Virus record (IMG/VR): IMGVR_UViG_3300025585_000032
Span: 1-64,000 of that record
Length of the DNA stretch: 64,000 nucleotides
Reading direction: 5' to 3' (one strand)
From: a virus
The position numbers and the translations under genes are program-made. How positions within the stretch are numbered: the first letter of the stretch is position 1; the number at the start of each line of letters is the position of its first letter. Below the pieces are notes generated by a model that saw only the letters and a list, made by a program, of their open reading frames with translations, was not told where the DNA came from and did not search any database. This document shows, in pieces, positions 1 to 46,410 of this stretch.

Positions 1-67
1 AGCACAGTGGTAGTGCATCACGTTGCCAACGTGAATGTCGTGGGTTCGACCCCCATCATCCGCTCCA
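1..67 (+). tRNA. tRNA-Gly(GCC), 5' end cut by window
   Basis: The anticodon arm is tcacg-TTGCCAA-cgtga, giving anticodon GCC (glycine). A T-arm with loop ttcgacc and an encoded 3' CCA at 65-67 follow. About nine bases of the 5' end lie outside the window. It is the first gene of a phage tRNA cluster. Confidence 0.9.
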
Positions 68-152
68 GTTTTTGAGCCTACGCCTAGCGGCGATAGGTCT
101 ATCGAGGTTTTCTTGGCTGTACCAGCATAGCAAAACAACCAAGACGAGTTTT

Positions 153-229
153 GCCCTTGTATCCCAATTGGCAGAGGAGGCTGATTCAAAACCAGCATGT
201 TGTCGGTTCGACTCCGACCGAGGGCACCA
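153..229 (+). tRNA. tRNA-Leu(CAA), short variable loop
   Basis: The acceptor stem gcccttg pairs with cgagggc, followed by discriminator A and encoded CCA. The anticodon loop is TTCAAAA (anticodon CAA, codon UUG). The anticodon stem has one A-C mismatch at its loop end. The variable region is only five bases (atgtt), whereas bacterial leucine tRNAs normally carry a long class II variable arm. It shares D-loop and variable-loop sequence with the Leu tRNAs at 369 and 6182, which suggests a common origin. Confidence 0.85.
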
Positions 230-368
230 AAACACCGAATGCGACGACCAGTATCGCATTCGGTCAGCACCGAAGTACGTTAGAATTTGAGCGTTTGAAG
301 TGACGTAATGGCGATGAGAGGTCATATGACTCATTGTAACCATCTCCCGCTTCGGTGCGAATCTATAT
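230..368 (+). other. tRNA spacer with hairpin
   Basis: No convincing gene. A perfect 10-bp inverted repeat (235-244 with 254-263) forms a hairpin just after the Leu tRNA. A second inverted pair, gcaccgaag (267-275) and cttcggtgc (350-358), brackets the rest of the spacer. It could be an RNA-processing or stability element, or an unrecognised small RNA. Confidence 0.3.
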
Positions 369-445
369 GCTCCTGTAGCCCAACTGGCAGAGGCATTGGT
401 CTTAGGAACCAAGTGTTGTGAGTTCGACTCTCACCGGGAGCACCA
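369..445 (+). tRNA. tRNA-Leu(UAG), short variable loop
   Basis: Acceptor gctcctg pairs with cgggagc. The anticodon arm ttggt-CTTAGGA-accaa gives anticodon UAG, reading codon CUA. The discriminator is A and CCA is encoded. The variable region is five bases (gtgtt), so this is a class I fold with a leucine anticodon. A73, a known leucine identity base, is present. Confidence 0.87.
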
Positions 446-458
446 TTTTGTTTGTTAT

Positions 459-534
459 GAGCGTGTGACCCGAATGGCTAGGGACCTGACTGCAACTCAG
501 GTATATGTAGGTTCAACTCCTATCACGCTCTCCA
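459..534 (+). tRNA. tRNA-Cys(GCA)
   Basis: Acceptor gagcgtg pairs with cacgctc. The anticodon arm cctga-CTGCAAC-tcagg gives GCA (cysteine). The discriminator is U, as expected for tRNA-Cys, and CCA is encoded at 532-534. Its last 12 bases overlap the end of the convergent sulfotransferase gene. Confidence 0.92.
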
Positions 535-1134
535 ATGTTTAGGAATTGCATCTTTCATTTGAGATTCTATCTCTTGTTTTATCTCTTCGTAATTTTCAGG
601 TTGTTGTGTTTTCTTATAATTACTTTTCAATTCTGAAAAATCAATGTCCTCGTAATATATGCGTTGATTAAAAATTTGCAGATGATTGGCATAAAAAAGA
701 CTTCTAGATAATCTTGTTATTAGGATAGAAATATCTTTAGGTATAATTTTCACCGTATATTTTTTTTCTAATTCGTGTTTCAAAGTATGAAATTTATCAA
801 GATGATCTGCAATATACCAACTAGCCAATTGAGATACTATATCTTTTCGCATTAGTAATATTTTGTATCCATTCTCTATTTCGTTTAGATATGGTGATCT
901 AAATTGCAAGTCGTGTAGCCAAAATTTTACTATGTATTTGTTTGTGGTTTTTTTATACTGAATGTATTCTTCATAATGTAATAGATAAGATTTGTCTAGA
1001 CTGTAAATTTTAGAATGCCAGGGCTCACGAAATGCTCTTATTTTTAGTTTCTGTTCTAATAATTCCACATAAGGTGTGGATCCACATCTAGGAGCAACAC
1101 CAATAATAACTATAGGGAATTTGTCAAAATTCAT
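523..1134 (-). CDS. putative sulfotransferase
   Basis: 203 residues. The N-terminus has the sulfotransferase P-loop-like 5'-phosphosulfate motif GVAPRCGSTPYVELL, followed by FREPW. Near residue 95 is MRKDIVSQLAS, matching the second PAPS-binding motif (RDxxxQxxS-like). The predicted role is transfer of sulfate from PAPS to an unknown acceptor. The ATG overlaps the stop of the upstream kinase/nucleotidyltransferase gene (TGATG), so the two are translationally coupled. The chosen start is this ATG rather than the GTG one codon upstream. It is AT-rich, and its 3' end runs into the convergent tRNA-Cys gene, which hints at later insertion. The family call is fairly firm; the substrate is unknown. 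Confidence 0.62.
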   Translation of the reverse strand: MNFDKFPIVIIGVAPRCGSTPYVELLEQKLKIRAFREPWHSKIYSLDKSYLLHYEEYIQYKKTTNKYIVKFWLHDLQFRSPYLNEIENGYKILLMRKDIVSQLASWYIADHLDKFHTLKHELEKKYTVKIIPKDISILITRLSRSLFYANHLQIFNQRIYYEDIDFSELKSNYKKTQQPENYEEIKQEIESQMKDAIPKHWRA

Positions 1135-1913
1135 CACAGTCCCATTTCCTTTCTTATCTTAGTCGCACTAATGCTGGTAATGCTTTCATCAAATGTTTCT
1201 TGCTCAATCTTGTATCCAACATCTCGTCCATATGTGATGTTGACGATGTTTGGTACAAGACGAATGATATAACGATTGTTGTATTCGCAATCCAAATCAC
1301 GACGAATTCGTTCCTCTACATCGGAGAATGAGAATGGATTCTTTTCGTCGTTGCAATTGCGAACCATGATGGCAACTTGACCTGTTTTTGCAATTGCACG
1401 TTCAAACAATGCACGATGGCCTTTGTGCCATGGTTGCCAGCGACCAAGCATTTGCACAGTTGGTTTTTCCCAATCAAATTCAGGACGTAAGTTATTCATT
1501 ATTGCATGAGCAATTTTTGGCGCCCATTTCTTTGCATCCATTTCAGAGATACGGAAATCATAATTGTGGTGTGATGGTTTTTCAAACAAAGCATTCGTGT
1601 TTGCATATTTGCTTTGATCAATCGTGTCCATCCATATGATCCAATCGGCATCATATATTTTTCGCATGTCCAATAATGGACAGACAAAGTCAACAATGAC
1701 GTACTTGCTGTCAGATTTGTCTGCAAGCAAACGCATTCTCTGCGCTTGGCGCAATCTTCCCTTTATGGAAAAATCCCAATCATTGTGCATCTCCCTGACT
1801 TGGTCAGCATTATACCAGACTGCGTTATGATTTTTTAGGCAATTAAGAAGTTCTTTTGCTAGTGTAGTTTTTCCAGATCCCGGAAGACCCATGATTAGAA
1901 TTCGCGTTGACAT
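1134..1913 (-). CDS. APS kinase-like / nucleotidyltransferase fusion
   Basis: 259 residues in two domains. The N-terminal half (1-145) is a P-loop kinase of the CysC/APS-kinase type with Walker A GLPGSGKTT and a DFVCPLLDMR segment at the usual APS-kinase position. The C-terminal half (from about 155) is an HxGH-type nucleotidyltransferase, with GRWQPWHKGH as the first motif and SISATKIR as the second (ISxTxxR-like). It could make APS and then PAPS for the coupled sulfotransferase. The C-terminal motifs also fit NMN adenylyltransferases, so a NAD role is an alternative. An upstream TTG would add eight residues; the ATG at 1913 has GGAG six bases upstream and is preferred. Confidence 0.65.
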   Translation of the reverse strand: MSTRILIMGLPGSGKTTLAKELLNCLKNHNAVWYNADQVREMHNDWDFSIKGRLRQAQRMRLLADKSDSKYVIVDFVCPLLDMRKIYDADWIIWMDTIDQSKYANTNALFEKPSHHNYDFRISEMDAKKWAPKIAHAIMNNLRPEFDWEKPTVQMLGRWQPWHKGHRALFERAIAKTGQVAIMVRNCNDEKNPFSFSDVEERIRRDLDCEYNNRYIIRLVPNIVNITYGRDVGYKIEQETFDESITSISATKIRKEMGL

Positions 1914-1957
1914 CATATACTCCGCATAATAAGACAAACTATATATTCATGTTTGCA

Positions 1958-2033
1958 GGGACCATAGTTCAGTGGCAAGAACACCTGCTCGACACGCAGG
2001 GGGTCGTTGGTTCAAATCCATCTGGTCCCACCA
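1958..2033 (+). tRNA. tRNA-Val(GAC)
   Basis: Acceptor gggacca pairs with tggtccc, with discriminator A and encoded CCA. The anticodon arm cctgc-TCGACAC-gcagg gives GAC (valine). One base separates it from the following tRNA-Thr. Confidence 0.92.
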
Positions 2034-2034
2034 C

Positions 2035-2109
2035 GTCCTCATAGTATAGTGGCGATTACACGGCTTTGGTAAAGCTGAGATGGCAGTTCAATTCTGCCTG
2101 AGGGCACCA
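2035..2109 (+). tRNA. tRNA-Thr(GGU)
   Basis: Acceptor gtcctca pairs with tgagggc. The anticodon arm cggct-TTGGTAA-agctg gives GGU (threonine). The 3' CCA is encoded at 2107-2109. Confidence 0.9.
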
Positions 2110-2116
2110 TTTCCTC

Positions 2117-2145
2117 TTGACATTCTAAAACGACTACTATATACT
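2117..2145 (+). promoter_or_regulatory. early sigma70-type promoter
   Basis: TTGACA, 17 bp, TATACT: a perfect -35 with a near-consensus -10. It lies 42 bp upstream of the outer-membrane protein start. Confidence 0.85.
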
Positions 2146-2186
2146 GTACATGCTAGTGTTTTCTAGTGATTTCAAAGGAGAAGTAA

Positions 2187-2633
2187 ATGATGAAGTATCT
2201 TTCTGCACTTGCGGGCGCCATGATGGCAACCACCGCTATGGCTGGTGATCTTTATGTAACTGGTAGCCTGGGCACCCATGCTACTGGATCTGGTGATGCT
2301 GTCGTTGGCGTTGCTCTTGGCATGGAGACACACAAGAATCTTCGCGTTGAGGCTGCATATGAGTACGATGTAGACACCAAGGGCAATAGGCTGTTTGCAC
2401 ATGCTCTTCCTCAGGCTCAGATTCCCGGCACTGCTCTGACACCATACGTTCTCGTTGGTGTTGGCGTTGATCTTGAATCTCTTGATTCAAAGCCAATGTA
2501 TGCTCTTGGTGGCGGCGTTCGCGTCGAGTTGACCAAGTCTACAGATCTTGATCTTCGTTATCGTCGTGTTGATAACACCGATAACACGGACAAGCGTGAA
2601 GTCGTTTCCGCTGGTGTTAGCGTAAAGTTCTGA
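2187..2633 (+). CDS. outer-membrane beta-barrel protein
   Basis: 148 residues. A signal peptide (MMKYLSALAGAMMATTAMA, cleavage after AMA) is followed by alternating-residue beta strands rich in G and V. The chain ends in SVKF, a terminal Phe typical of BAM-assembled barrels. The size suits a small eight-strand OmpA/OmpX-like barrel. It has its own strong early promoter, an AAAGGAG ribosome site, and a GC hairpin after the stop, so it is an independent unit. Phage-encoded barrels of this sort (Lom-like) alter the host surface, for example to exclude superinfection; that role is inferred here. Confidence 0.72.
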   Translation: MMKYLSALAGAMMATTAMAGDLYVTGSLGTHATGSGDAVVGVALGMETHKNLRVEAAYEYDVDTKGNRLFAHALPQAQIPGTALTPYVLVGVGVDLESLDSKPMYALGGGVRVELTKSTDLDLRYRRVDNTDNTDKREVVSAGVSVKF

Positions 2634-2642
2634 TCGAAAGTA

Positions 2643-2668
2643 GTGGCGGCGGCATTAGTCGCCGCCAC
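2643..2668 (+). terminator. GC-rich hairpin after OMP gene
   Basis: gtggcggcg pairs perfectly with cgccgccac around an eight-base loop. No T-run follows, so it may be a weak terminator or an mRNA 3' stabiliser. Confidence 0.5.
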
Positions 2669-2676
2669 AATCAGAA

Positions 2677-3225
2677 ATGCATACGTTCAAGTTCCACAAA
2701 AATTTCTGGCAGTTGATTGTTACCACGACTGCCAAATCAAGACTCGCCCCCAATTTCGTTGGGCTAGTCCAGGCAGCATATGCCAAAACACCAGAAGGTA
2801 GTTTTGTCAACACGCTAAATGACGTTGTCGCAACTAACTGGATTGCCCTAGACTGGGACAAAGACGAAGATGCTGACTCTTGCATTTTCTTCAGAAAGTC
2901 GAGGCCAAATGAATCTTGGAAAGGATTCAAGATTCAAGGAATAGGACACGATACGCAAAGGACATCTATCGATAAAGTCTTGATCAAAGTCAAGGATCAG
3001 TTAAGAAAGAAAGGTTGGTGGATAGAGGCATCTGATGCTTTTGAGCATATCCTCTATAAGGATAGAAGAGTTCCCGTCGTTACAGACGAGGATTTTCTAG
3101 TCTCCTTGTTTCCGACTTCAAATCTTCAACTTTTGAATGATCGACAAAAGCCGGGAAAATATGTCAGAGGAGTTGCAGGTAAGTCTGTCAAGGAAAGTGT
3201 ATTTGGCAACCCCACGTTAAAATGA
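2677..3225 (+). CDS. conserved phage protein, unknown
   Basis: 182 residues, no signal peptide or membrane span. It is rich in aromatic and basic residues with a conserved-looking C-terminal block (NDRQKPGKYVRGVAGKSVKE). I do not recognise the family. It sits just ahead of the peroxiredoxin gene with a short gap, so the two are probably co-transcribed. The upstream hairpin separates it from the OMP gene; no promoter of its own is visible. Confidence 0.7.
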   Translation: MHTFKFHKNFWQLIVTTTAKSRLAPNFVGLVQAAYAKTPEGSFVNTLNDVVATNWIALDWDKDEDADSCIFFRKSRPNESWKGFKIQGIGHDTQRTSIDKVLIKVKDQLRKKGWWIEASDAFEHILYKDRRVPVVTDEDFLVSLFPTSNLQLLNDRQKPGKYVRGVAGKSVKESVFGNPTLK

Positions 3226-3240
3226 TAAATGGAGAAAAAT

Positions 3241-3762
3241 ATGCTCACGAAGGTACCCAATGTTGTTTTTCATACTCGCGTTCGCGATGATACTGCTACT
3301 GGTCCAAATCCGTATAGATGGGCGCAAGTAAGCACGTTTGAACTCTTTGGCGAAAAGAGAATCCTTGCATTCTCTCTTCCCGGTGCATTTACACCAACAT
3401 GTTCCACATATCAGGTTCCTCGCTTTGAGGAAATGTACAACAAGTTCCGCGCTCTTGGCATTGATGATGTCTACTGCATTTCTGTCAATGATGCATTCGT
3501 CATGAATGCTTGGGCCAAGAAGCAGGGCATTGAAAACATCAAGATGATTCCAGATGGCTCGGCCAAATTCACTCGCCAAATGGGAATGCTTGTTGACAAG
3601 GATAATCTGGGATTCGGCATGCGTTCATGGCGATATGCATTCTTGGTAGAGAATGAAAAGATCGTCAGGTCTTGGATTGAGCCTGGTCTAAAGGATCTCG
3701 CAATGGATGATCCATATGGCGAGACAAATCCAGAAAAGATCTATGAGGATCTAACCAAGTAA
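3241..3762 (+). CDS. peroxiredoxin (Prx5-like)
   Basis: 173 residues. The peroxidatic-cysteine motif GAFTPTCSTYQVP (consensus PGAFTPTCS) sits near residue 50, as in the hybrid Prx5/AhpC-like peroxiredoxins that reduce peroxides with glutaredoxin or thioredoxin. The start at 3241 is preferred over 3229 because GGAG lies six bases before it. With the glutaredoxin at 5581 it could form a phage-supplied peroxide-reducing pair protecting the infected cell. Confidence in the family is high; physiological partners are inferred. Confidence 0.88.
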   Translation: MLTKVPNVVFHTRVRDDTATGPNPYRWAQVSTFELFGEKRILAFSLPGAFTPTCSTYQVPRFEEMYNKFRALGIDDVYCISVNDAFVMNAWAKKQGIENIKMIPDGSAKFTRQMGMLVDKDNLGFGMRSWRYAFLVENEKIVRSWIEPGLKDLAMDDPYGETNPEKIYEDLTK

Positions 3763-3770
3763 CATAAATA
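3763..3770 (+). promoter_or_regulatory. candidate late promoter CATAAATA
   Basis: Seven of eight bases match the T4 late box TATAAATA. It lies 50 bp upstream of the gene at 3820, and a small T-rich hairpin (3775-3791) follows it. Confidence 0.4.
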
Positions 3771-3819
3771 AAAATGTAGATTTTTTCTACACAACACACA
3801 ACACACAAAGGAATAAATC

Positions 3820-4008
3820 ATGAAAAATCCATATGAAATGCGCTATGAATATTATCGCTCAGCTAAAGAACAGTTGCTAGAGGAATATCATGCAAAAATT
3901 ACTGAAATGCAAATCGCAGATCGTAAAGACGATTTTCCAAAGTACCCAACAACTGACGATATCATTGCGCTAGCTGAACGAATCAAATCTTTTACAGAAA
4001 AAAAATAA
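3820..4008 (+). CDS. small hypothetical protein
   Basis: 62 residues, charged and probably helical (MKNPYEMRYEYYRSAKEQ at the N-terminus), with no known motif. An AAAGGA ribosome site precedes it. Proteins that begin in this style occur in many T4-like phages, without known function. Confidence 0.7.
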   Translation: MKNPYEMRYEYYRSAKEQLLEEYHAKITEMQIADRKDDFPKYPTTDDIIALAERIKSFTEKK

Positions 4009-4011
4009 GCC

Positions 4012-4040
4012 TTGACATTTCCAGAACTGTCGCGTAATAT
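4012..4040 (+). promoter_or_regulatory. early promoter, leaderless type
   Basis: TTGACA, 17 bp, TAATAT. The next gene's ATG (4048) starts seven bases after the -10, where transcription should begin, so there is no room for a ribosome site. Confidence 0.8.
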
Positions 4041-4047
4041 GATGAAC

Positions 4048-4419
4048 ATGAAGATCATCTATGTCCGCGACAGTTCTGGAAAGAAAAAGCCTTCCAAGTC
4101 CAAGCGACTGGAAGCAATTCGTCTAGAACATCAGAAGTTTCTTGCCTCCGTCGGTTACAAGGGAACTTCCCGCTTGGTGCGAGCAAAGCCAGCTGCGCTG
4201 GTTGCTCCTAGTGCGCCATCAATTCCTTCCAGCTCGCTTCGCGACATGATCGCACCTTGCCCAAAGAAGGATATCTTTGAGCGTACCAGAAACGAGTCCG
4301 AAGAAGTCAAGGAAGCCATTCGTGCAAAGGCTGCTAGAACTGCGCCAGCCTATAACAAGGGCGCTCTGCAGTACATTACTGATGGTGATAATTTGAAGAC
4401 ACTCGGTAGAAAGGTTTAG
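4048..4419 (+). CDS. conserved phage protein, unknown
   Basis: 123 residues, basic N-terminus (MKIIYVRDSSGKKKPSKSKR), an Ala/Pro/Ser-rich linker around residues 48-66, and a C-terminal block AYNKGALQYITDGDNLKTLG. I do not recognise the family. Starts at 4012 (TTG) or 4042 would lie in the promoter, so 4048 is chosen. The transcript should be leaderless. Confidence 0.72.
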   Translation: MKIIYVRDSSGKKKPSKSKRLEAIRLEHQKFLASVGYKGTSRLVRAKPAALVAPSAPSIPSSSLRDMIAPCPKKDIFERTRNESEEVKEAIRAKAARTAPAYNKGALQYITDGDNLKTLGRKV

Positions 4420-4431
4420 GAGAATAAGCTG

Positions 4432-4530
4432 ATGGATATACTATTATCAATTTTCATTGGCATGATATTAGTGAGAATATGGGATTGTTATTGGGAACTT
4501 GAAAAAATTCGCAAAGAAGAAAAAGAATGA
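4432..4530 (+). CDS. tiny membrane protein
   Basis: 32 residues: a single predicted transmembrane helix (about residues 3-17), then a charged cytoplasmic tail ending EKIRKEEKE. AGGAG lies eight bases upstream, and the stop overlaps the next ATG (ATGA). Confidence 0.6.
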   Translation: MDILLSIFIGMILVRIWDCYWELEKIRKEEKE

Positions 4531-4727
4531 AAGCGCAAATTTTACTCAATGGTCAAATGATTAGATTTGATAATTTTACGATGGAGATTCTAAATGGAAT
4601 TTTATTCATCTCCGTTTTGGTTGTGGATGTATCTTCGCGCCAACTCAAGGCACTTGCTGACTGGTTTGCTGAGAAATACCCAAATCAGACTATAATTGCT
4701 ATAGTTTCCCAAAATTCAAAGGTTTGA
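4527..4727 (+). CDS. small hypothetical protein
   Basis: 66 residues, with alternating hydrophobic strands around 25-36 and no recognised motif. It is coupled to the upstream membrane peptide by an ATGA overlap. Confidence 0.6.
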   Translation: MKAQILLNGQMIRFDNFTMEILNGILFISVLVVDVSSRQLKALADWFAEKYPNQTIIAIVSQNSKV

Positions 4728-4729
4728 AC

Positions 4730-4996
4730 ATGAAAGACAATATTAAACCGTGCCTGATGGATACCATCATTGTTCCCAGGGAACGAAATACAATTTATCA
4801 ACACCCAGAATCCTATCTCTGGTCGCAGCGTAGCATTTATCTAATGGAAAACAAGATGGAAAGTCTCAAGAACGCCCTTGACAATATCCGTCAGATATGT
4901 GAGAATGAAAACATCAAGCCGAAGATGAAGTTGACGTTTGTGGAAACAATTGCTGGTCTTGCTCTTGGATTGACTAATGATGACGGCCGTAGCTGA
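4730..4996 (+). CDS. small hypothetical protein
   Basis: 88 residues with a mostly helical C-terminal half. The ATG at 4730 is chosen over a TTG two codons upstream. The stop lies inside the start of the next gene, continuing a tight operon. No family recognised. Confidence 0.6.
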   Translation: MKDNIKPCLMDTIIVPRERNTIYQHPESYLWSQRSIYLMENKMESLKNALDNIRQICENENIKPKMKLTFVETIAGLALGLTNDDGRS

Positions 4997-5159
4997 ATAC
5001 ACACCCGAACAGATTGAGACAATCAAGCTGCGAGCGCGGCGACTAATCAATGGTGTTTCCCATACACCGACTTTCATTGACGCTAATCACCTGATGATTG
5101 AACAGCTTCTAAATATTGTGGATCAATATGAAAGGCTCAAGGAGGCCTCAGATGCGTAA
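4977..5159 (+). CDS. small helical protein
   Basis: 60 residues, amphipathic and helical throughout, no cysteines. It starts within the upstream gene (ATGATG at 4977/4980) and ends just inside the lipoprotein gene. Function unknown. Confidence 0.6.
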   Translation: MMTAVAEYTPEQIETIKLRARRLINGVSHTPTFIDANHLMIEQLLNIVDQYERLKEASDA

Positions 5160-5565
5160 TGTCGTTCTTTCTCTTTTTGCTGCTTCTATGCTTGCCGGCT
5201 GTGCTGGTGCTGGTCCTAATCAGACTGGCGGTGCTGTCGTTGGCGGTGTCGCAGGTGGCGTTCTTGGCTCTATGTTTGGTGGTGGTACCGGGCGCCTCGT
5301 TGGCACTGGCCTGGGTGCTGCTATTGGCACAGCGGTAGGCTCTTCTGTCGGCGCATCCATGGATCGCCAGGAGCAGATGCAGAATCAGCCCGTGCATCAG
5401 CCATATCATGCGCCGTCGCATATGTATGGTCAGAACAATCTTTCCCGCCCTCACGCCTCAGCTGGTGAGGAGTCTGCATACAATCGCGGCCGCGCCGAGC
5501 GCGAGGCTCAGATCCAGCAGCGTCGTGAGCAGGACGCATACATGCGTGGTCTTCGCGGTTACTAA
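5152..5565 (+). CDS. glycine-zipper lipoprotein
   Basis: 137 residues. The lipoprotein signal MRNVVLSLFAASMLAGC carries the lipobox LAGC. A Gly/Ala/Val-rich stretch (about 25-75) repeats the glycine-zipper pattern of the Rickettsia 17-kDa antigen and osmotically inducible lipoproteins, followed by a Gln/His/Arg-rich hydrophilic tail. The start is set by AAGGAGG at the proper distance; the 12 upstream codons are not needed. It should be anchored in the outer membrane with the glycine zipper inserting into lipid. Its use to the phage is unknown. Confidence 0.75.
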   Translation: MRNVVLSLFAASMLAGCAGAGPNQTGGAVVGGVAGGVLGSMFGGGTGRLVGTGLGAAIGTAVGSSVGASMDRQEQMQNQPVHQPYHAPSHMYGQNNLSRPHASAGEESAYNRGRAEREAQIQQRREQDAYMRGLRGY

Positions 5566-5580
5566 TAAGGAGTTTTTGTA

Positions 5581-5838
5581 ATGGAATTTACTGTCTACAC
5601 CTCGCCATCTTGCGGTTATTGCAAGATGGCCAAGGAACTGATTTCACAAAAGGGTCACAAGTATATTGAAAAGAGCATCGGCAAGGACTTGACTAAGGAT
5701 GAGTTCTTTGCTAAGATGGGTCCAGGTATCAAGAGTGTGCCTCAGGTCTTCATTGGAGATAAGCGTATCGGTGGATACGAGAATCTTCGTGAATACTATG
5801 AGGAGATCACCAACAACTTTGGCAAGCAAGGATTTTGA
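5581..5838 (+). CDS. grxC: glutaredoxin
   Basis: 85 residues, a single complete glutaredoxin fold. The active site CGYC lies at residues 11-14 after a YTSPS strand, the cis-Pro loop is VPQVFI (about 57-62), and the GG turn follows (RIGGYENL). Phage glutaredoxins feed electrons to ribonucleotide reductase or peroxiredoxins; a peroxiredoxin lies 2 kb upstream. AAGGAG precedes the start. Confidence 0.9.
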   Translation: MEFTVYTSPSCGYCKMAKELISQKGHKYIEKSIGKDLTKDEFFAKMGPGIKSVPQVFIGDKRIGGYENLREYYEEITNNFGKQGF

Positions 5839-5839
5839 T

Positions 5840-6088
5840 ATGTACACCAAGCACCAGCTCAAGGAATTTTGTCAGAACGGTGTTGTCACCGTCGTGTTCA
5901 CCAAGGCCGATGGATCAGAGCGTACCATGAAGGCTACGCTGCTTCCAGAGTATGTGAACAATGGCAAGACTCTGCTTCAGGAGAACGAGAACAAGCGCCC
6001 AGAGAATCCTGATGTCCTCGCCGTGTGGGATGTTGATGCAAATGGATGGCGCAGTTTTCGTATTGATTCAATCAAGGGAGTTTCATAA
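5840..6088 (+). CDS. DUF2693-like SH3-fold protein
   Basis: 82 residues. The layout, a basic helix followed by VVTVVFTKADGSERTMKATL, then VLAVWDVDANGWRSFR, matches the small phage family known as DUF2693. These resemble transcription-factor WYL or SH3 barrels, but their function is not established. The ATG follows the glutaredoxin stop by one base, and its own stop overlaps the next ATG. Confidence 0.65.
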   Translation: MYTKHQLKEFCQNGVVTVVFTKADGSERTMKATLLPEYVNNGKTLLQENENKRPENPDVLAVWDVDANGWRSFRIDSIKGVS

Positions 6089-6174
6089 TGCCACACGCAC
6101 ATAAGAACCGTCCGCGCAAGGGTCGTCGCAAGATTGGCTCCAAGAAGCGTCGCGCACGTTCTCTTCGCAAGTAA
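6088..6174 (+). CDS. 28-residue arginine/lysine-rich peptide
   Basis: The peptide MPHAHKNRPRKGRRKIGSKK continues with a basic tail; nearly half its residues are Arg or Lys. It overlaps the upstream stop (TAATG). Such a peptide would bind nucleic acid or ribosomes, but its role is unknown. The tRNA-Leu gene starts eight bases after its stop. Confidence 0.55.
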   Translation: MPHAHKNRPRKGRRKIGSKKRRARSLRK

Positions 6175-6181
6175 GATATCT

Positions 6182-6258
6182 GCCCACATAGACCAATAGG
6201 CAGAGTCAAGGAACTTAAAATTCCTGTGTTGTGAGTTCGAATCTCACTGTGGGCACCA
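6182..6258 (+). tRNA. tRNA-Leu(UAA), short variable loop
   Basis: All arms pair well: acceptor gcccaca/tgtgggc, anticodon aggaa-CTTAAAA-ttcct, T-arm gtgag-ttcgaat-ctcac. The anticodon is UAA (codon UUA), the discriminator A, and CCA is encoded. The variable region gtgtt is five bases, so the tRNA is class I. It lies between protein genes rather than in the main tRNA cluster. Confidence 0.88.
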
Positions 6259-40261: not shown

Positions 40262-41473
40262 ATGAGTTCTACTTTTTGTGCGAGAAACTATGATTATTAC
40301 TTCGTAGAGTTAGATAGACTTGTTTGGAAAATGTGTTGTCACACCACTCCAAGGACCATGGCTGCTGGTGCTGATTGGTTCAATGGTGCAGAAATGCAGG
40401 ATCGTAGACATGCAGCTAGCAATAATATAAAACATAAAGACTGTCATTTTTGTTGGAAATTAGAAGATTCTGGATTTCTAAGTCCTCGTCATCATTCTTT
40501 AAAAACATATAAAGACTCCAGTGAATTTGGTAATAAAGATATTTTAGAAATAAAACTTAGTAATATTTGTGATTTAGCATGTAGATATTGTGATGCTCCA
40601 TTTAGTACTATTTGGGCCCAGAGAAAAGGATCTTATGTTAAAAATGACATAAATGGTGTTCCTACGGTACAACAATATGATAAAAAATTTATGAGTAATT
40701 TTACGTCTACTGCTGATTATAAAAAAGTTTTTCAACAATTTGTTGATTGGTTGAATAGAGAAATGCCCAGATTTACCAAAGGTCGTGGCATAACATTTAC
40801 AGGTGGTGAACCATTTTTAGACAATAATTTGTACGAACTTATTGAACAATTAAATTTAAAAGACACAAGAATAGTATTTAATACAAACATAAACACACCC
40901 GAAAACAAATGGAAACAACAAACTGATTTGTTGCAAAAACTTATTGCAAAAAATAATACAGTCATGCTAAGATGTAGTATTGATGGAATTGGTGCTCAAC
41001 AAGAGTGGCAAAGACAAGGCTGTGATTGGAATCTCATGAAAGAAAATTGGATGAGACTTGGTTCTTTGCCGCTAACAATGGGTGCCGCCCTTACTGTAAC
41101 ACCTTTAACTCTAGAAAGTATGTGTGGTGTTGGTGCTTTTGTAAAACTAACCTCAAAAAAAATGAATAAAATACCAATATGGTTTCCTTCATCTGTAGTA
41201 AATTTTCCAAAACAACTTTGTCCAATAGAATGGTTTTCTTCTTTTAAAAAAGAAATAGAGACAATGTTAAAATTGGTTAGAGCTGATACTGTATTTTCTG
41301 GTGAAGTTGTTTTAAACGAATTAAATTCTTGGCTAAGTAGTTCAAATATTCAACCTTCAATACAAGCAAAAGACATGCTTGTGTCCAAATTGGATGAAGC
41401 CGAAAAACTTTATGGTGGCGGTTCTTGGAGAGAAATCTATCCTAAAGTTGCAGAAATAGCCACAAAGAAATAA
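40262..41473 (+). CDS. radical SAM protein (twitch-type)
   Basis: 403 residues. The radical SAM motif CDLACRYC (CxxxCxxC, about residues 102-109) and TFTGGEPF (about 180-187) are clear. Extra Cys upstream (KMCCHTTPR, CHFCWKLE) may bind a second cluster. This arrangement fits twitch-domain radical SAM enzymes found in phages; substrates are unknown, with peptide or RNA modification possible. The gene is far more AT-rich than its upstream neighbours and lacks a strong ribosome site, consistent with acquisition. Confidence 0.85.
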   Translation: MSSTFCARNYDYYFVELDRLVWKMCCHTTPRTMAAGADWFNGAEMQDRRHAASNNIKHKDCHFCWKLEDSGFLSPRHHSLKTYKDSSEFGNKDILEIKLSNICDLACRYCDAPFSTIWAQRKGSYVKNDINGVPTVQQYDKKFMSNFTSTADYKKVFQQFVDWLNREMPRFTKGRGITFTGGEPFLDNNLYELIEQLNLKDTRIVFNTNINTPENKWKQQTDLLQKLIAKNNTVMLRCSIDGIGAQQEWQRQGCDWNLMKENWMRLGSLPLTMGAALTVTPLTLESMCGVGAFVKLTSKKMNKIPIWFPSSVVNFPKQLCPIEWFSSFKKEIETMLKLVRADTVFSGEVVLNELNSWLSSSNIQPSIQAKDMLVSKLDEAEKLYGGGSWREIYPKVAEIATKK

Positions 41474-41477
41474 TAAG

Positions 41478-41485
41478 CATAAATA
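41478..41485 (+). promoter_or_regulatory. candidate late promoter CATAAATA
   Basis: 33 bp upstream of the gene at 41519. Confidence 0.45.
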
Positions 41486-41518
41486 ATAGCATGTTCAACT
41501 CTAACCCAGGATTATATA

Positions 41519-41776
41519 ATGCCAACGTATGACTTCATCAATGAAGAGACTGGTGAGATCTTTGAGATGCAGATGTCCATCGCTGAGAAGGAAAAGTATC
41601 TAAAGAAGAACAAGCATATCAAGCAGGCTGTGACGAAAATGTCTATCGGCGATTCAGTTCATCTTGGAATCACGAAGCCGCCAGCCGATTTCCAAAAAGG
41701 AGTTATTGGTCGCATGAAGGAAAAGATTCATGGAAACAAGATCAATTCCAAATTCGGTATTCCGAGAGAGTGGTGA
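41519..41776 (+). CDS. FmdB-like conserved phage protein
   Basis: 85 residues. MPTYDFINEETGEIFEMQMS resembles the N-terminal half of FmdB zinc-ribbon proteins, but without the Cys pairs. Homologous-looking proteins occur in many T4-like phages; role unknown. A hairpin follows. Confidence 0.62.
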   Translation: MPTYDFINEETGEIFEMQMSIAEKEKYLKKNKHIKQAVTKMSIGDSVHLGITKPPADFQKGVIGRMKEKIHGNKINSKFGIPREW

Positions 41777-41823
41777 GTGATTAGTCCCATTTCTCCCGTG
41801 TATAGAACAGTATTCAACACCAA

Positions 41824-41853
41824 AAGAGGATCTCGCGAAAATGCAGGATCCTC
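41824..41853 (+). terminator. candidate terminator hairpin
   Basis: agaggatc pairs with gatcctct around a 14-base loop and is followed by ttg, so it is a weak terminator. It ends the 41519 unit before phoH. Confidence 0.5.
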
Positions 41854-41876
41854 TTTGTCATTTCAGAGAGGCGTAC

Positions 41877-42575
41877 ATGTCAAAGAAAAAGAAGAGACTG
41901 CAAAACCAGCAACAGCAAAATCATTTCTCTCTACGAACAATCTCTCCACTAACACTCAATCAATCATCAACATTCAAGGCCTTTGAGCAGGGCAAGCACC
42001 TTCTTCTACACGGCGTCGCAGGCACAGGCAAGACATATATCTCTCTCTATCTTGCACTAAACGAGGTGCTAAACAAATCAAGATACAAACAAATAGTCAT
42101 CATACGAAGTGTCGTTCCATCACGCGACATGGGATTTCTTCCAGGAACTGCAAAAGACAAAGCCAGAGTCTATGAAGATCCATACAAGATGATTTGCGAT
42201 GATCTTTTCAGTCGTGGTGATGGATATGAGATTCTAAAGACCAAGAGACTTGTAGATTTCAATACGACATCATTCTTGCGCGGTGTTACATTCAATGATG
42301 CGATCATCATTGTTGACGAATGTCAGAACATGATAGGTCAGGAATTGGATACTGTGATGACTCGCGTTGGAAACAACTGTCGTATTGTTTTCTGTGGTGA
42401 CTTTAGGCAAACTGATTTGGCCAAGCATGAGGAAAAGCGAGGACTCTTGACATTCATGAATATTCTTGATAAAATGTCTTGTTTTGAAAAGATTGAGTTC
42501 GGAAAGGAAGACATTGTTCGTTCCGCACTTGTCAAATCATACATTATTTCCAAACTGGAGTTAGGATACGTTTGA
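41877..42575 (+). CDS. phoH: PhoH-like P-loop ATPase
   Basis: 232 residues. After a Gln-rich N-terminus come Walker A HGVAGTGKT (about 46-54), Walker B IIIVDECQNM (about 146-155) and FCGDFRQTDL (sensor-like). PhoH proteins are common in marine T4-like phages and in the pho regulon; they are RNA/DNA-stimulated ATPases of debated function. The ATG at 41877 (after GAGAGG) is chosen; twelve upstream codons are in the hairpin. Confidence 0.88.
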   Translation: MSKKKKRLQNQQQQNHFSLRTISPLTLNQSSTFKAFEQGKHLLLHGVAGTGKTYISLYLALNEVLNKSRYKQIVIIRSVVPSRDMGFLPGTAKDKARVYEDPYKMICDDLFSRGDGYEILKTKRLVDFNTTSFLRGVTFNDAIIIVDECQNMIGQELDTVMTRVGNNCRIVFCGDFRQTDLAKHEEKRGLLTFMNILDKMSCFEKIEFGKEDIVRSALVKSYIISKLELGYV

Positions 42576-42576
42576 T

Positions 42577-42738
42577 ATGTTGATTTATGCTGCGCCTTTG
42601 ATCATTTGGATGATCATGCAATTAATGAGGACAATCATGCTCACTTGGCCAAATGCATTCAATGCTTGGATGTGCGTCTTTACATATTTGGCAATTGGAT
42701 TGATTTTCCTAAACTTCTTGTTTTCATTGGCACAGTAA
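42577..42738 (+). CDS. small two-helix membrane protein
   Basis: 53 residues, two predicted transmembrane helices (about 3-22 and 31-50), no charged tail. It starts one base after phoH and overlaps the nuclease start (TAATG). Confidence 0.6.
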   Translation: MLIYAAPLIIWMIMQLMRTIMLTWPNAFNAWMCVFTYLAIGLIFLNFLFSLAQ

Positions 42739-43391
42739 TGAAGAAGTTTCGTCATGCATTTGTGAATCTTCCGCAGTTGACGGAAGAATATATTGACGGA
42801 AGGAGACACTACAAGACTCCAGAAGGTAATGTGTATCCTTCCGTCACTACCATTCTCTCGCGTCTACCAAACGAAAGTTTGCGTGAGTGGCAAAAGAGAG
42901 TTGGTGAAGAAGAAGTAAATCGTGTTTCCAAAGTATCTGCTCGTCGTGGCACCAATCTTCATGAAATATGTGAGCGATATCTATTGAATGAAGAAAGACC
43001 GATGCGTGGACACATGCCGGATGTTCAAGGCATGTTTGTAGAATTGTGCAAGTATATTGATCGGATAGATGAGATTTATGCGATTGAAGCACAGTTGTAT
43101 TGTGACACATATCAATTTGCCGGACGATGCGATGTCATTGGTACATTTGATGGGCATCCTGCAATCATGGACTTCAAGACTACGAAGTCTGAAGTTGATT
43201 CCAGCATGGATAAGGTCAAGAAGTATTTCATGCAGTTATCCGCATATTCTCTTGCGTTTGAGGAAAGAACTGGTCAGGAAATAAATCTTGGTGTGCTGTT
43301 GTTTGCATCCAATGAGACTGAACCTAGTTGCATTCAAGCGGACTTGACCAAGTACAAGATGGAATTTATTTCAGTTCTTGACAATCCCTAA
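42738..43391 (+). CDS. RecB/Cas4-type PD-(D/E)XK nuclease
   Basis: 217 residues. RGTNLHEICERYL (motif with His) is followed by EAQLYCDTYQFAGRCDVIGT and HPAIMDFKTTKS, the D...D-x-K core; QLSAYSLAFEE is the usual QxxxY motif. A single-domain phage exonuclease of this type acts in recombination or in processing DNA ends. No Fe-S Cys cluster as in Cas4 is seen. The tmRNA promoter overlaps its last codons. Confidence 0.85.
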   Translation: MKKFRHAFVNLPQLTEEYIDGRRHYKTPEGNVYPSVTTILSRLPNESLREWQKRVGEEEVNRVSKVSARRGTNLHEICERYLLNEERPMRGHMPDVQGMFVELCKYIDRIDEIYAIEAQLYCDTYQFAGRCDVIGTFDGHPAIMDFKTTKSEVDSSMDKVKKYFMQLSAYSLAFEERTGQEINLGVLLFASNETEPSCIQADLTKYKMEFISVLDNP

Positions 43392-43406
43392 ATATTAGAT
43401 TATACT
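43378..43406 (+). promoter_or_regulatory. tmRNA promoter
   Basis: TTGACA, 17 bp, TATACT. The -10 ends only four bases before the acceptor piece, and the -35 lies within the nuclease gene. Predicted start is near 43413. Confidence 0.82.
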
Positions 43407-43409
43407 ATG

Positions 43410-43740
43410 GATATTGCTGTTGATGACGACGCAATAAGCAGGCTGGACCCGGCTTCAATGCCGGCATCTCCACCAGTAGATACAATGTGAGGGGCTAGTT
43501 GCATGGCACACGCGAACAGAGTGCAACCCATCACATAATAGTCGCGATAAAGGTGATGAGCATTGTATCTACTAATGGGGATGTAAGGGATCGACAGATG
43601 CGTAAAGGTTGTCGGAGGTAATCGGTAAGGAACGACCGTCAATTAGTCCAAACAATAGATGCAAACGATAATTACGCATCTGAGATGGCTCTAGCAGCCT
43701 GAACGGGGTTCGGTGGGGACCTGGCAACAGAATCCCACCA
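43410..43740 (+). ncRNA. ssrA: circularly permuted (two-piece) tmRNA
   Basis: The acceptor piece comes first. A T-arm ccggc-ttcaat-gccgg leads into catctcc-A-CCA, ending at 43475. The spacer (43476-43576) opens and closes with a perfect 12-bp inverted repeat (43476-43487 with 43561-43572) and holds two more hairpins. The coding piece starts at 43577 with ggggatg, which pairs with catctcc including the G3-U70 alanine identity pair; taagggatcgac follows. The tag fr ame 43661-43702 reads ANDNYASEMALAA-stop. The 3' end, acctggcaacagaa within ggtgggg/tcccacc, is the alphaproteobacterial form. Mature RNA would be two chains paired through the acceptor stem; the role is ribosome rescue. Confidence 0.93.
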
Positions 43741-43769
43741 CTTTCATAAATCGTAGAGGAGTAATCACG

Positions 43770-43952
43770 ATGACTGAAGTATCTTGCTATGTTATGCGAC
43801 CATTGTCTTTCGCAACTGATAACGAATGCACCTATAAGAATCTGCGTTCGGTCAATTTGAATCGTGCCAAGAAGCAGAAGAATGTCTATAAACTTTCTTA
43901 TGGACAGTATGGCACGGAAAATTATGTTTGCTATCTAGCAACACGCGACTAA
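43770..43952 (+). CDS. small hypothetical protein
   Basis: 60 residues; basic and Tyr-rich C-terminal half (AKKQKNVYKLSYGQYGTENY). AGAGGAG upstream. Follows the tmRNA by 29 bases. Unknown function. Confidence 0.62.
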   Translation: MTEVSCYVMRPLSFATDNECTYKNLRSVNLNRAKKQKNVYKLSYGQYGTENYVCYLATRD

Positions 43953-43957
43953 TTACC

Positions 43958-44563
43958 ATGAAGAAACTACTGGCAATAGGATTAGTCCTATTGGCTAGCA
44001 CTCTTGCTTTGAGACAGTATCCATACGATACTGCGCCAAAAGCCTATGCTCAATTACCCGACACAGACAAGGTTTATGAGTATAGACACGAACTTCCAGA
44101 TCTTAGCGAGTATAAGCTGGAAGAGCCTGAGATCAAGATGGTATATGTTGATCCGAAGGAAAGAGAGTGTTTGGCTAAGGCGATATATTGGGAGGCTCGC
44201 AATCAGTCCCTTGATGGAAAGATTGCGGTTGGCTTTGTCGTGATCAATCGTGTCAATGCTGGTCTATGGCATGACAGCGTTTGCAAGGTCGTGTTTCAAG
44301 GTTGCCAGTTCTCTTGGGTTTGCACAGCAAATGCAAAGAAGAATCCTGCAAATAACAAGAACTACGACGAGCAGATTGCGTGGGCTGAATCAATTGCCCT
44401 TGCAAACGAGTTACTTTCAGAGTATAATGAAATTCAAGACGTTACATATGGTGCGGTTTTCTTTCATGCTCACTATGTGAGACCAGATTGGTCAAAGTGG
44501 AAGAAGGTTGAACGTACTGTGCGTATTGATGATCATATCTTTTATCGTTTGAGGTCCATGTAA
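43958..44563 (+). CDS. SleB-type cell-wall hydrolase
   Basis: 201 residues. The N-terminal hydrophobic segment (MKKLLAIGLVLLASTLAL) may be a cleaved signal or a signal-anchor. The SleB/Hydrolase_2 domain follows: ECLAKAIYWEARNQSLDGKI (catalytic Glu, about 75-94), VINRVNAGLWHDSVCKVVF, QFSWVC, and FHAHYVRPDW near the end. It probably cuts peptidoglycan glycan strands and is the best endolysin candidate here. The start at 43958 gives a proper signal. Confidence 0.82.
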   Translation: MKKLLAIGLVLLASTLALRQYPYDTAPKAYAQLPDTDKVYEYRHELPDLSEYKLEEPEIKMVYVDPKERECLAKAIYWEARNQSLDGKIAVGFVVINRVNAGLWHDSVCKVVFQGCQFSWVCTANAKKNPANNKNYDEQIAWAESIALANELLSEYNEIQDVTYGAVFFHAHYVRPDWSKWKKVERTVRIDDHIFYRLRSM

Positions 44564-44784
44564 TGCCCACTAAGGATGAAATGCTTTCCTTTGCCAAAAA
44601 CATTGAAAGCATCGTGAAGGAAAAAGACCTAAACTACATTGATGCCATCACGCATTTTTGTGAGGTCAATTCATTGGAGATTGAGTCTGTGACAAATCTC
44701 ATCAATCAATCGCTCAAGGCCAAGATTGCATATGATGCATCACAGCTCAATCTTCTTCCAAAGAGTAATACGCTTCCCGTATGA
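44563..44784 (+). CDS. 33: gp33-like late transcription coactivator
   Basis: 73 residues. The layout FAKNIESIVKEKDLNYIDAI, HFCEVNSLEIESV, INQSLKAKIAYDASQLNLL matches the small protein annotated as gp33 in marine T4-like phages. It bridges RNA polymerase and the late sigma/clamp at TATAAATA promoters. Sits immediately before gp59, as in that gene order. TAATG overlap with the hydrolase gene. Confidence 0.68.
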   Translation: MPTKDEMLSFAKNIESIVKEKDLNYIDAITHFCEVNSLEIESVTNLINQSLKAKIAYDASQLNLLPKSNTLPV

Positions 44785-45437
44785 AAATTGTTGCTATAGA
44801 AGCATACAAGTTATTTCAGGCGATCAGACTTCACTTTGTTCGCAAGAGTTTCAACTACTTCAAGAGTGGTGGAAGCGTGAAAATAACCGAGAAAGCGTTT
44901 CTTGCCCGAAGGGACAAGTTTGCTTTCTATAGATTGGCCAAGATGTATGATCGTGATACATTCATTGATTTGTCATTGTCAAATGTATTGTATAGTGTAT
45001 CATATTCAAAGAACAATCAACTTGTTTTGAGAACGAACAGTTCATTGTATTCGCTGGCTCTTCTTGAGCCAGAAGCAGAAGATATTTTGATTGAGTATCA
45101 AAAAAGATTTCAAGCATTGACATACAATTTCAAGCAGGACTTGAAAAAGATTTTAGATTGGGCGCATGATAATGAATGTACTGTGGATAGGATTCTTGAT
45201 CCTGGTGATTCTTATCCTCCGCTCTTGACTATGGTGATGCAAGAGAATATTTCTTTGGAAACTCTTGTGATCATTAATGGTGTGATAAACTTTTTACCCA
45301 TGTGGAATCGTCGCATCAAGGACGAAATCATATGGCCCGATTTTGCATTCAAATGCGAGAAGTATACTCCATTTGTTTTGCAGAGAATTGATTTGGAGAG
45401 CATGAAAAAGATCATCAAAAATGAACTTTGTTCTTGA
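44781..45437 (+). CDS. 59: gp59-like helicase loader
   Basis: 218 residues, as in T4 gp59 (217). AYKLFQAIRLHF, then FLARRDKFAFYRLAKMYDRD, and a helical C-terminal half parallel the two-domain T4 loader, which places gp41 helicase on gp32-coated forks. ATGA overlap with gp33; gp32 follows. Confidence 0.85.
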   Translation: MKIVAIEAYKLFQAIRLHFVRKSFNYFKSGGSVKITEKAFLARRDKFAFYRLAKMYDRDTFIDLSLSNVLYSVSYSKNNQLVLRTNSSLYSLALLEPEAEDILIEYQKRFQALTYNFKQDLKKILDWAHDNECTVDRILDPGDSYPPLLTMVMQENISLETLVIINGVINFLPMWNRRIKDEIIWPDFAFKCEKYTPFVLQRIDLESMKKIIKNELCS

Positions 45438-45531: not shown

Positions 45532-46410
45532 ATGTCTACATTTGCAGCACTAAAGAAGTCCAGCGGTTCGATTGACAAGCTGGCACGCGAGTTAGAGAAA
45601 CTCAACGCTCCCGCAACAAATTCTTCTGAAGATACACGTTTTTGGAAGCCAGAACTTGATAAGGCTGGTAACGGCTTTGCGACCATTCGCTTTCTTCCTG
45701 CGCCAGCAGTTGATGGTGATGATGCGCTTCCTTGGGTTCGTATCTTTGATCATGGCTTCCAGGGTCCTGGCGGCTGGTACATTGAGAATTCGTTGACGAC
45801 TCTGGGTCAGAAAGATCCTGTGTCTGAGCATAACTCGGTTCTTTGGAATTCTGGTATTGAGGCTAACAAGGAGATTGCTCGCAAGCAGAAGCGTCGCTTG
45901 AAGTATATCGCCAACATTCTTGTCATTAGCGATACGAAGAATCCAGACAACGAGGGCAAGGTATTCTTGTTCAAGTTTGGCAAGAAGATCTTTGACAAGA
46001 TCACCGAAGCAATGAATCCTCAGTTTGATGACGAGAAGGCAACCAATCCTTTTGATTTCTGGGCTGGTGCAAACTTCAAGTTGAAGGTTCGTAAGTTTGA
46101 AGGTTATCCAAATTACGATAAGTCCGAGTTTGAGAAGTCTTCAGCACTTTATGATGGTGATGATGCGAAACTTGAGAAACTTTGGAAGATGGAATATTCA
46201 CTCAAGGAATTCCTTGATCCGAAGAACTTCAAGAGTTATGACGAACTCAAGACCAAGTTGAATCGTGTTCTTGGTCTTGATGGTGCAGCGCCTGCACCAA
46301 AGACAAAGGCTTCAGATGAAAAGTCATCTTCAAAGGAGACTCCGCCTTGGAGTGGAGATGATGACGACGATGATATGAAGTTGTTTGAGAAGTTGGCTCG
46401 GGAAGACTGA
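45532..46410 (+). CDS. 32: gp32-like single-strand DNA-binding protein
   Basis: 292 residues. The Lys/Arg-containing N-terminus (MSTFAALKKSSGSIDKLARE, cooperative binding) leads to an OB-fold core with FATIRFLPAP, GGWYIENSLTTLGQKDPVSE and KRRLKYIANILVI. The tail is acidic (SGDDDDDDMKLFEKLARED), as used to contact replication partners. T4 gp32 binds zinc through His and three Cys in the core; this protein has no Cys, so the zinc site is absent. AAAGGA precedes the ATG; a strong terminator follows. Confidence 0.92.
   Translation: MSTFAALKKSSGSIDKLARELEKLNAPATNSSEDTRFWKPELDKAGNGFATIRFLPAPAVDGDDALPWVRIFDHGFQGPGGWYIENSLTTLGQKDPVSEHNSVLWNSGIEANKEIARKQKRRLKYIANILVISDTKNPDNEGKVFLFKFGKKIFDKITEAMNPQFDDEKATNPFDFWAGANFKLKVRKFEGYPNYDKSEFEKSSALYDGDDAKLEKLWKMEYSLKEFLDPKNFKSYDELKTKLNRVLGLDGAAPAPKTKASDEKSSSKETPPWSGDDDDDDMKLFEKLARED

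Follow-up and report, generated by a model that had tools for sequence, protein, structure and literature searches.

The DNA analysed here (the window, which comprises 64,000 nucleotides of a virus record of 142,041 bases and 41.5% G+C overall) contains at 43413-43742, on the plus strand, a complete circularly permuted, or two-piece, tmRNA gene, as established by covariance models, by ARAGORN, and by direct reading. This gene is probably a working ssrA that a T4-like phage has inherited as part of its genome, and it would rescue stalled ribosomes and tag the peptides on them; we infer the timing of its expression, its processing, its charging, and its benefit to the phage from sequence. Phage two-piece tmRNAs are a kind already known, to which the window gene adds another case. 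New here are the apparent inheritance of the gene as a phage locus, the indications of selection on it, a conserved spacer hairpin in a fixed register, and a σ70-consensus promoter of early type.

The first-pass annotation had read this stretch as a phage-encoded, circularly permuted tmRNA of alphaproteobacterial type and had named a search with the alpha-tmRNA covariance model as the way to check it. Consistent with that reading, the whole of model RF01849 (alpha_tmRNA; positions 1-355) aligned at 43374-43742 with a score of 127.1 bits (E 2.7e-34), and RF04321 (tmRNA_permuted) matched at 43413-43702 with 109.5 bits. Both scores exceed the cut-offs of the models, which are 50 bits for RF01849 and 47 bits for RF04321. 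(The two models as used are without pseudoknots, PK1 and PK2 included.) RF01849 survives clan competition, the Rfam subtype of the gene being alpha, and although both models were matched full-length, about 40 model positions between the tag stop and the 3′ domain are absent from the window. ARAGORN likewise called a permuted tmRNA, with the tag ANDNYASEMALAA. Direct reading bore out the order of the parts as originally described, with an acceptor half (catctcc-A-CCA) that precedes the coding half (ggggatg), the spacer lying between them; moreover, the two halves together make 7 of 7 pairs of an acceptor stem that includes G3·U70, the identity element for AlaRS. The predicted tmRNA transcript folded better than 100 of 100 shuffles (z -4.6). 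A chance match, or a tRNA falsely called as a tmRNA, is ruled out by the model scores together with the covariation and the tag conservation presented below. The features of the gene and its surroundings are collected in Table 1.

Table 1. Features of the permuted tmRNA gene and of the genes around it (window coordinates)
Feature	Position	Strand	Evidence or remark
PhoH-like protein	41841..42575	+	PF02562 E 2.2e-44
PD-(D/E)XK exonuclease	42606..43391	+	phrog_298 E 1.4e-59; PF12705
Early-type promoter TTGACA-N17-TATACT	43378..43406	+	At most 1 mismatch to TTGACA-N17-TATAAT
Acceptor piece to CCA (5′ end approximate)	43413..43475	+	RF01849 and RF04321, sequence
T arm CCGGC-TTCAAT-GCCGG, 6-nt loop	43449..43464	+	Sequence, clade conservation, T-stem covariation
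Acceptor-stem 3′ strand CATCTCC (43465-43471), discriminator A, CCA (43473-43475)	43465..43475	+	Pairs with 43577-43583
Clamp helix, 5′ strand, from A76 of CCA	43475..43488	+	14 pairs; same register in 35/44 phage genes
Spacer (intervening sequence), 101 nt, predicted removal in maturation	43476..43576	+	Between CCA and G1
Clamp helix, 3′ strand	43560..43573	+	14 pairs; same register in 35/44 phage genes
AAU before G1 (A(-2)U(-1), RNase P-type leader)	43574..43576	+	NAU in 33/35 clamp-bearing phage genes
Coding piece from G1 (43577): acceptor 5′ strand GGGGATG (43577-43583), tag frame, 3′ domain	43577..43742	+	RF01849 to model end
Tag reading frame ANDNYASEMALAA and stop TGA	43661..43702	+	ARAGORN; same peptide in sister clades, silent changes only
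Small ORF, 60 aa	43770..43952	+	Without Pfam or PHROGs match; conserved around its start in sister clades
Cell wall hydrolase	43958..44563	+	PF07486 E 4.6e-23
Late-transcription coactivator (gp33-like)	44563..44784	+	PF16805 E 2.1e-21; phrog_254
gp59-like DNA helicase loader	44781..45437	+	phrog_269 E 7.2e-41
gp32-like single-strand DNA-binding protein	45532..46410	+	phrog_224 E 6.4e-116

The source virus is T4-like and marine or estuarine. It encodes T4-type baseplate, sheath, portal, and terminase proteins together with gp32, gp33, and gp59; in the major head protein it shares 65-66% identity with Stenotrophomonas phage DLP_6, Methylophilales phage Melnitz, and Pelagibacter phage Mosig, and 64% with HTVC008M. 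An estuarine setting is suggested by a 78%-identical relative, whose contig has been misbinned in a MAG with a name indicative of Delaware Bay. In the window the genes run in the order PhoH, PD-(D/E)XK exonuclease, tmRNA, small ORF, cell wall hydrolase, gp33, gp59, and gp32. In Melnitz, Mosig, and HTVC008M the tmRNA gene lies between the same exonuclease and gp33, and the succession of PhoH, exonuclease, tmRNA, and then gp33 is a locus common to these three phages and the window; in HTVC008M, gp59 comes next, across the record ends. The locus is conserved in part on IMG/VR contigs L046 (exonuclease, tmRNA, gp33, gp59) and L026 (tmRNA, gp59, gp32). Among the best 80 of at least 592 IMG/VR relatives of the exonuclease, a choice that keeps these counts from being a prevalence, 35 contigs bear a permuted tmRNA, which in 28 of the 80 loci is found 32-3225 nt downstream of the exonuclease. 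Synteny across such diverged phages, judged from gene order rather than from a tree, argues for the tmRNA gene being an inherited locus of the phage lineage. In DLP_6 and in the ANDNYAHEDYALAA group (L034, for example) the tmRNA gene is located elsewhere in the genome. Some phages with a related exonuclease have no tmRNA match on their contig, and the gene is therefore probably dispensable in some lineages. No meaningful plasmid-borne relatives of the gene were found.

The notion, also put forward in the first-pass annotation, that a phage copy would be unusual has to be given up. Buchholz et al. 2022 (PMC9004378) described a two-piece tmRNA in Melnitz and put the number of such tmRNAs in phage genomes at 53, of which 50 are aquatic, and RF04321 matches Melnitz, Mosig, HTVC008M, and DLP_6 (the last with 136.8 bits), the first three of these being the nearest cultured relatives, all with a permuted tmRNA. 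RF04321 had no match in S-SKS1, S-SM2, S-CAM9, phiN3, or Cr30. The ssrA gene of Melnitz (MZ577097) resembles that of the window in being permuted, of alpha type, and placed between a PD-(D/E)XK nuclease and the late-transcription coactivator, and also in the register of its clamp helix (see below), which is followed by GAU before G1. It differs in having the tag ANDNYVPVDYALAA, a 142-nt spacer, a 7-nt T loop, and a glutamine riboswitch just downstream, whereas no riboswitch was found in or beside the window tmRNA at E values up to 5. Mosig (MT647606) and HTVC008M (NC_020484) have an RF04321 match at the same locus and a clamp helix at A76, but their tags are different and their spacers short (44-49 nt), and in Mosig 1 nt stands before G1 in place of the 3 in the window. 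The tmRNA of Stenotrophomonas phage DLP_6 (KU682439) is permuted too, but it is of beta type (RF01850) and lies in a tRNA array, not at the exonuclease locus. The tmRNA genes of mycobacteriophages Bxz1, Wildcat, and DS6A and of Bacillus phage G are, as far as is known, one-piece genes. These phages, which are unrelated to that of the window, also carry tmRNA genes, and the tmRNA of DS6A is little more than a tRNA-like domain (PMC4131195).

The clade to which the window gene belongs comprises 13 distinct sequences (from IMG/VR and the window), all of which specify the identical tag peptide, the tag codons differing between sub-clades by two silent changes only (GCT/GCA and GCA/GCT). As had been noticed from the start, the tag ends in ALAA; in related phages an AN...AA tag is retained almost throughout. 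Between the sub-clades the acceptor pair A5-U68 is replaced by G5-C68 and one T-stem pair changes from C-G to G-C. When nine sequences, including those of Melnitz, Mosig, and HTVC008M, were compared by a scripted count on an ungapped, hand-laid alignment (in which 5 of the 9 rows are close relatives, so the cells are not independent events), every acceptor and T-stem cell was paired, changes on both sides were seen at 3 of 5 T-stem pairs and 2 of 7 acceptor pairs, and G3·U70 was unchanged in 9 of 9. The compensatory changes in the acceptor and T stems, the invariance of G3·U70, and the restriction of tag changes to silent ones together argue that the tmRNA gene is under selection, on structure as well as on the tag. 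In a species-genome collection the tag has a single exact match filed under a bacterium, which was rejected because the 4.1-kb contig in question belongs to this same phage group. (That contig, L063, JAFMJQ010000169.1, assigned to a Thermoleophilia MAG, is 78% identical to window positions 41480-44941 and is misbinned phage DNA.)

The T stem of the window gene has 5 base pairs, with covariation, and closes a loop of 6 nt (TTCAAT, 43454-43459) where 7 nt is usual, a length that we do not take as defining. All 13 distinct clade sequences share the 6-nt loop, which elsewhere among 44 phage permuted tmRNAs occurs only in L182, the others having 7 nt, and which is shorter than the T loop of 40 of the 44; the sequence of the T loop varies widely among these genes. 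A loop of this size could affect modification or the binding of SmpB.

The strong early promoter postulated in the first pass was recovered upstream of the gene. The window has 22 sites with at most one mismatch to TTGACA-N17-TATAAT where 0.58 are expected (38 times as many), all on the plus strand and spanning 2117-43406, and the tmRNA promoter is the last of them. In the whole record there are 27 σ70-consensus sites with 17-nt spacing, 22 of which lie before 43.4 kb, and at the corresponding position sister clade B matches TTGACA-N17-TATAAT without a mismatch. These findings support transcription of the tmRNA gene by the host polymerase from a promoter of early type, with presumably early timing. 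A CTAAATA at 43388 was considered as a late promoter and rejected, since it overlaps the exonuclease stop and since the window has no excess of this motif, with 5 copies against 6.3 expected; the T4-type late promoter motif TATAAATA does not occur near the window tmRNA. A second phage group (L081, L083, L084, and L086, with tags ANDNYAHE(D/E/G)YALAA) has TATAAATA just upstream of its tmRNA, unlike the early-type promoter of the window. Several of the σ70 sites occur in near-identical pairs about 300 nt apart (22859/23170, 26640/26956, and 28384/28684), which suggests duplicated small early genes.

The spacer had been described as closed by a perfect 12-bp inverted repeat. An inverted repeat is indeed present; its extent is 14 pairs, however, formed by AGTAGATACAATGT with GCATTGTATCTACT, and it begins within the acceptor half, such that the first base of this clamp helix is A76 of CCA and the last lies 3 nt before G1. 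None of 2000 shuffles reached 14 pairs, and folding of 43466-43583 gave a z of -4.1. A terminal helix that runs for at least 8 pairs without a break is present in 26 of 44 distinct phage permuted tmRNAs and has exactly the register of the window in 23 of the 26; when mismatches are allowed, 35 of the 44 make at least 9 of 12 pairs in that register. (In Mosig and L180 the clamp helix is present with a 1-nt gap.) Over nine sequences, 10 of 11 clamp pairs are altered on both sides, and 97 of 99 clamp cells are paired in register as against 33-51 of 99 when the strands are slid by 1 or 2. The trinucleotide before G1 is NAU in 33 of the 35 clamp-bearing genes (27 GAU, 4 AAU, and 2 UAU). For bacterial RNase P, U is the preferred base at -1 and A a good one at -2, AU being among the best leader dinucleotides, and pairing of N(-1)N(-2) with RCCA slows the enzyme (PMC9433436). 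By our reading, NAU would permit at most A73-U(-1) and, in the case of GAU, C75-G(-3), with C74 staying unpaired.

The spacer repeat holds one register, from A76 to 3 nt before G1, and is followed by A(-2)U(-1); it is therefore likely a processing hairpin with a role in end maturation. Two points escaped the first-pass annotation, namely the inheritance of the locus within the phage lineage and the conservation of this repeat as a structure with a set position with respect to the expected cleavage sites. We put at about even the chance of a more general proposition, namely that permuted precursors of the phage lineage share a hitherto undescribed processing hairpin (a helix of 10-15 bp between the spacer ends, starting from A76, with RAU before G1, on which RNase P and the 3′ maturation enzymes would meet their cut sites within a single uninterrupted helix) and that the gene is an inherited T4-like phage locus that has kept its position in phages whose hosts belong to different classes. 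If the gene is such a locus, then the alpha-type sequence of the Melnitz tmRNA need not mark a recent capture from SAR11. Helices of 12-14 pairs may suffice for duplex-specific cleavage, and the hairpin might instead serve chiefly for regulation or for double-strand cutting by RNase III; the fixed register at both ends and the A(-2)U(-1) leader speak against this, and we think it rather unlikely. In models RF01849 and RF04321 the spacer has no pairing. The RF01849 consensus spacer (Aaaaacc...guuuuuuuauGGGG) has an A-rich start, a U-rich end, and a terminal UAU, which hints at a weak version of the clamp, and the clamp may thus be common to cellular permuted tmRNA genes. The conserved processing hairpin, combined with the RNase P-type AU leader, offers a concrete model for how a rearranged tmRNA transcript could be cut into two pieces.

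In the course of events that we propose, host RNA polymerase would transcribe the gene from the σ70-type early promoter, and the precursor would fold with its acceptor stem continuous with the clamp helix from the spacer ends. Host RNase P would then cleave before G1 at the AU leader, and 3′-processing enzymes would trim to CCA; the spacer would thereby be set free, and the two remaining RNAs would stay joined by base pairing and be charged by host AlaRS via G3·U70. The search for an SmpB gene was negative in the 142-kb contig, which is possibly incomplete, and in 13 related records, and the phage RNA would therefore depend on host SmpB, just as it would use host AlaRS, EF-Tu, RNase P, and proteases. 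With SmpB and EF-Tu of the host, it would reach ribosomes that had stalled on broken or non-stop mRNA and set them free, and the stalled peptide would receive (A)ANDNYASEMALAA for proteolysis of the ClpXP type. The likely benefit would be that ribosomes and amino acids stay available while host mRNA is destroyed.

Ribosome rescue with tagging for proteolysis thus appears to be the best-supported role. The tmRNA might instead mainly mark host or phage proteins for degradation, whether to recycle amino acids or to remove particular proteins, with rescue as a by-product. However, tmRNA acts on stalled ribosomes rather than on selected proteins, and the tag has no features beyond the usual AND...LAA; we consider such a role unlikely, even with the ALAA end kept and a promoter of early type. 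For Melnitz, rescue or tagging has been proposed as the role of the tmRNA, along with an early promoter (PMC9004378). Very unlikely, in our estimation, is a decoy that binds host SmpB, AlaRS, or stalled ribosomes and so blocks host trans-translation, as proposed for the tag-less tmRNA of DS6A. A form reduced to the TLD, as in DS6A, acts as an inhibitor of tmRNA and may do so by titrating SmpB (PMC4131195, PMC11915505), and both the short T loop and the failure to find a phage SmpB in the contig would suit a decoy. Yet a decoy has no need of a tag, and here the tag frame, its stop, and its ALAA end are kept with silent changes only, as an AN...AA tag is kept by nearly all related phages. Hardly credible at all is a functionless passenger recently captured from a host: tmRNA genes are nearly universal in bacteria and some related phages and contigs are missing the gene, but its position at the same locus across diverged phages and its conserved tag stand against this, and the covariation, with compensatory changes and an invariant wobble pair, largely refutes it. 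Phage tmRNAs have mostly been listed as curiosities; an inherited and selected locus in aquatic T4-like phages, as we take this one to be, argues that ribosome rescue matters in infection.

ARAGORN was blind to the tmRNA in many relatives (L004-L011, L013, and L014) that RF01849 and RF04321 clearly match, and overall it missed about half of the close relatives in which covariance models find a tmRNA. Given these misses, phage two-piece tmRNAs are likely under-annotated.

Of note, thyX lies near the phage tmRNA gene in Mosig (MT647606, 110633-111805), in Melnitz (MZ577097, 45984-48645), and in L046. In Pelagibacter ubique the tmRNA gene likewise adjoins thyX (PMC2704228), and this proximity may reflect where the phage gene came from. 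The window also encodes a radical SAM protein with weak QueE-like matches (40262-41473), upstream of the tmRNA locus, and within positions 1-6258 it carries tRNA genes, three for Leu (CAA, TAG, and TAA) along with those for Cys, Val, and Thr.
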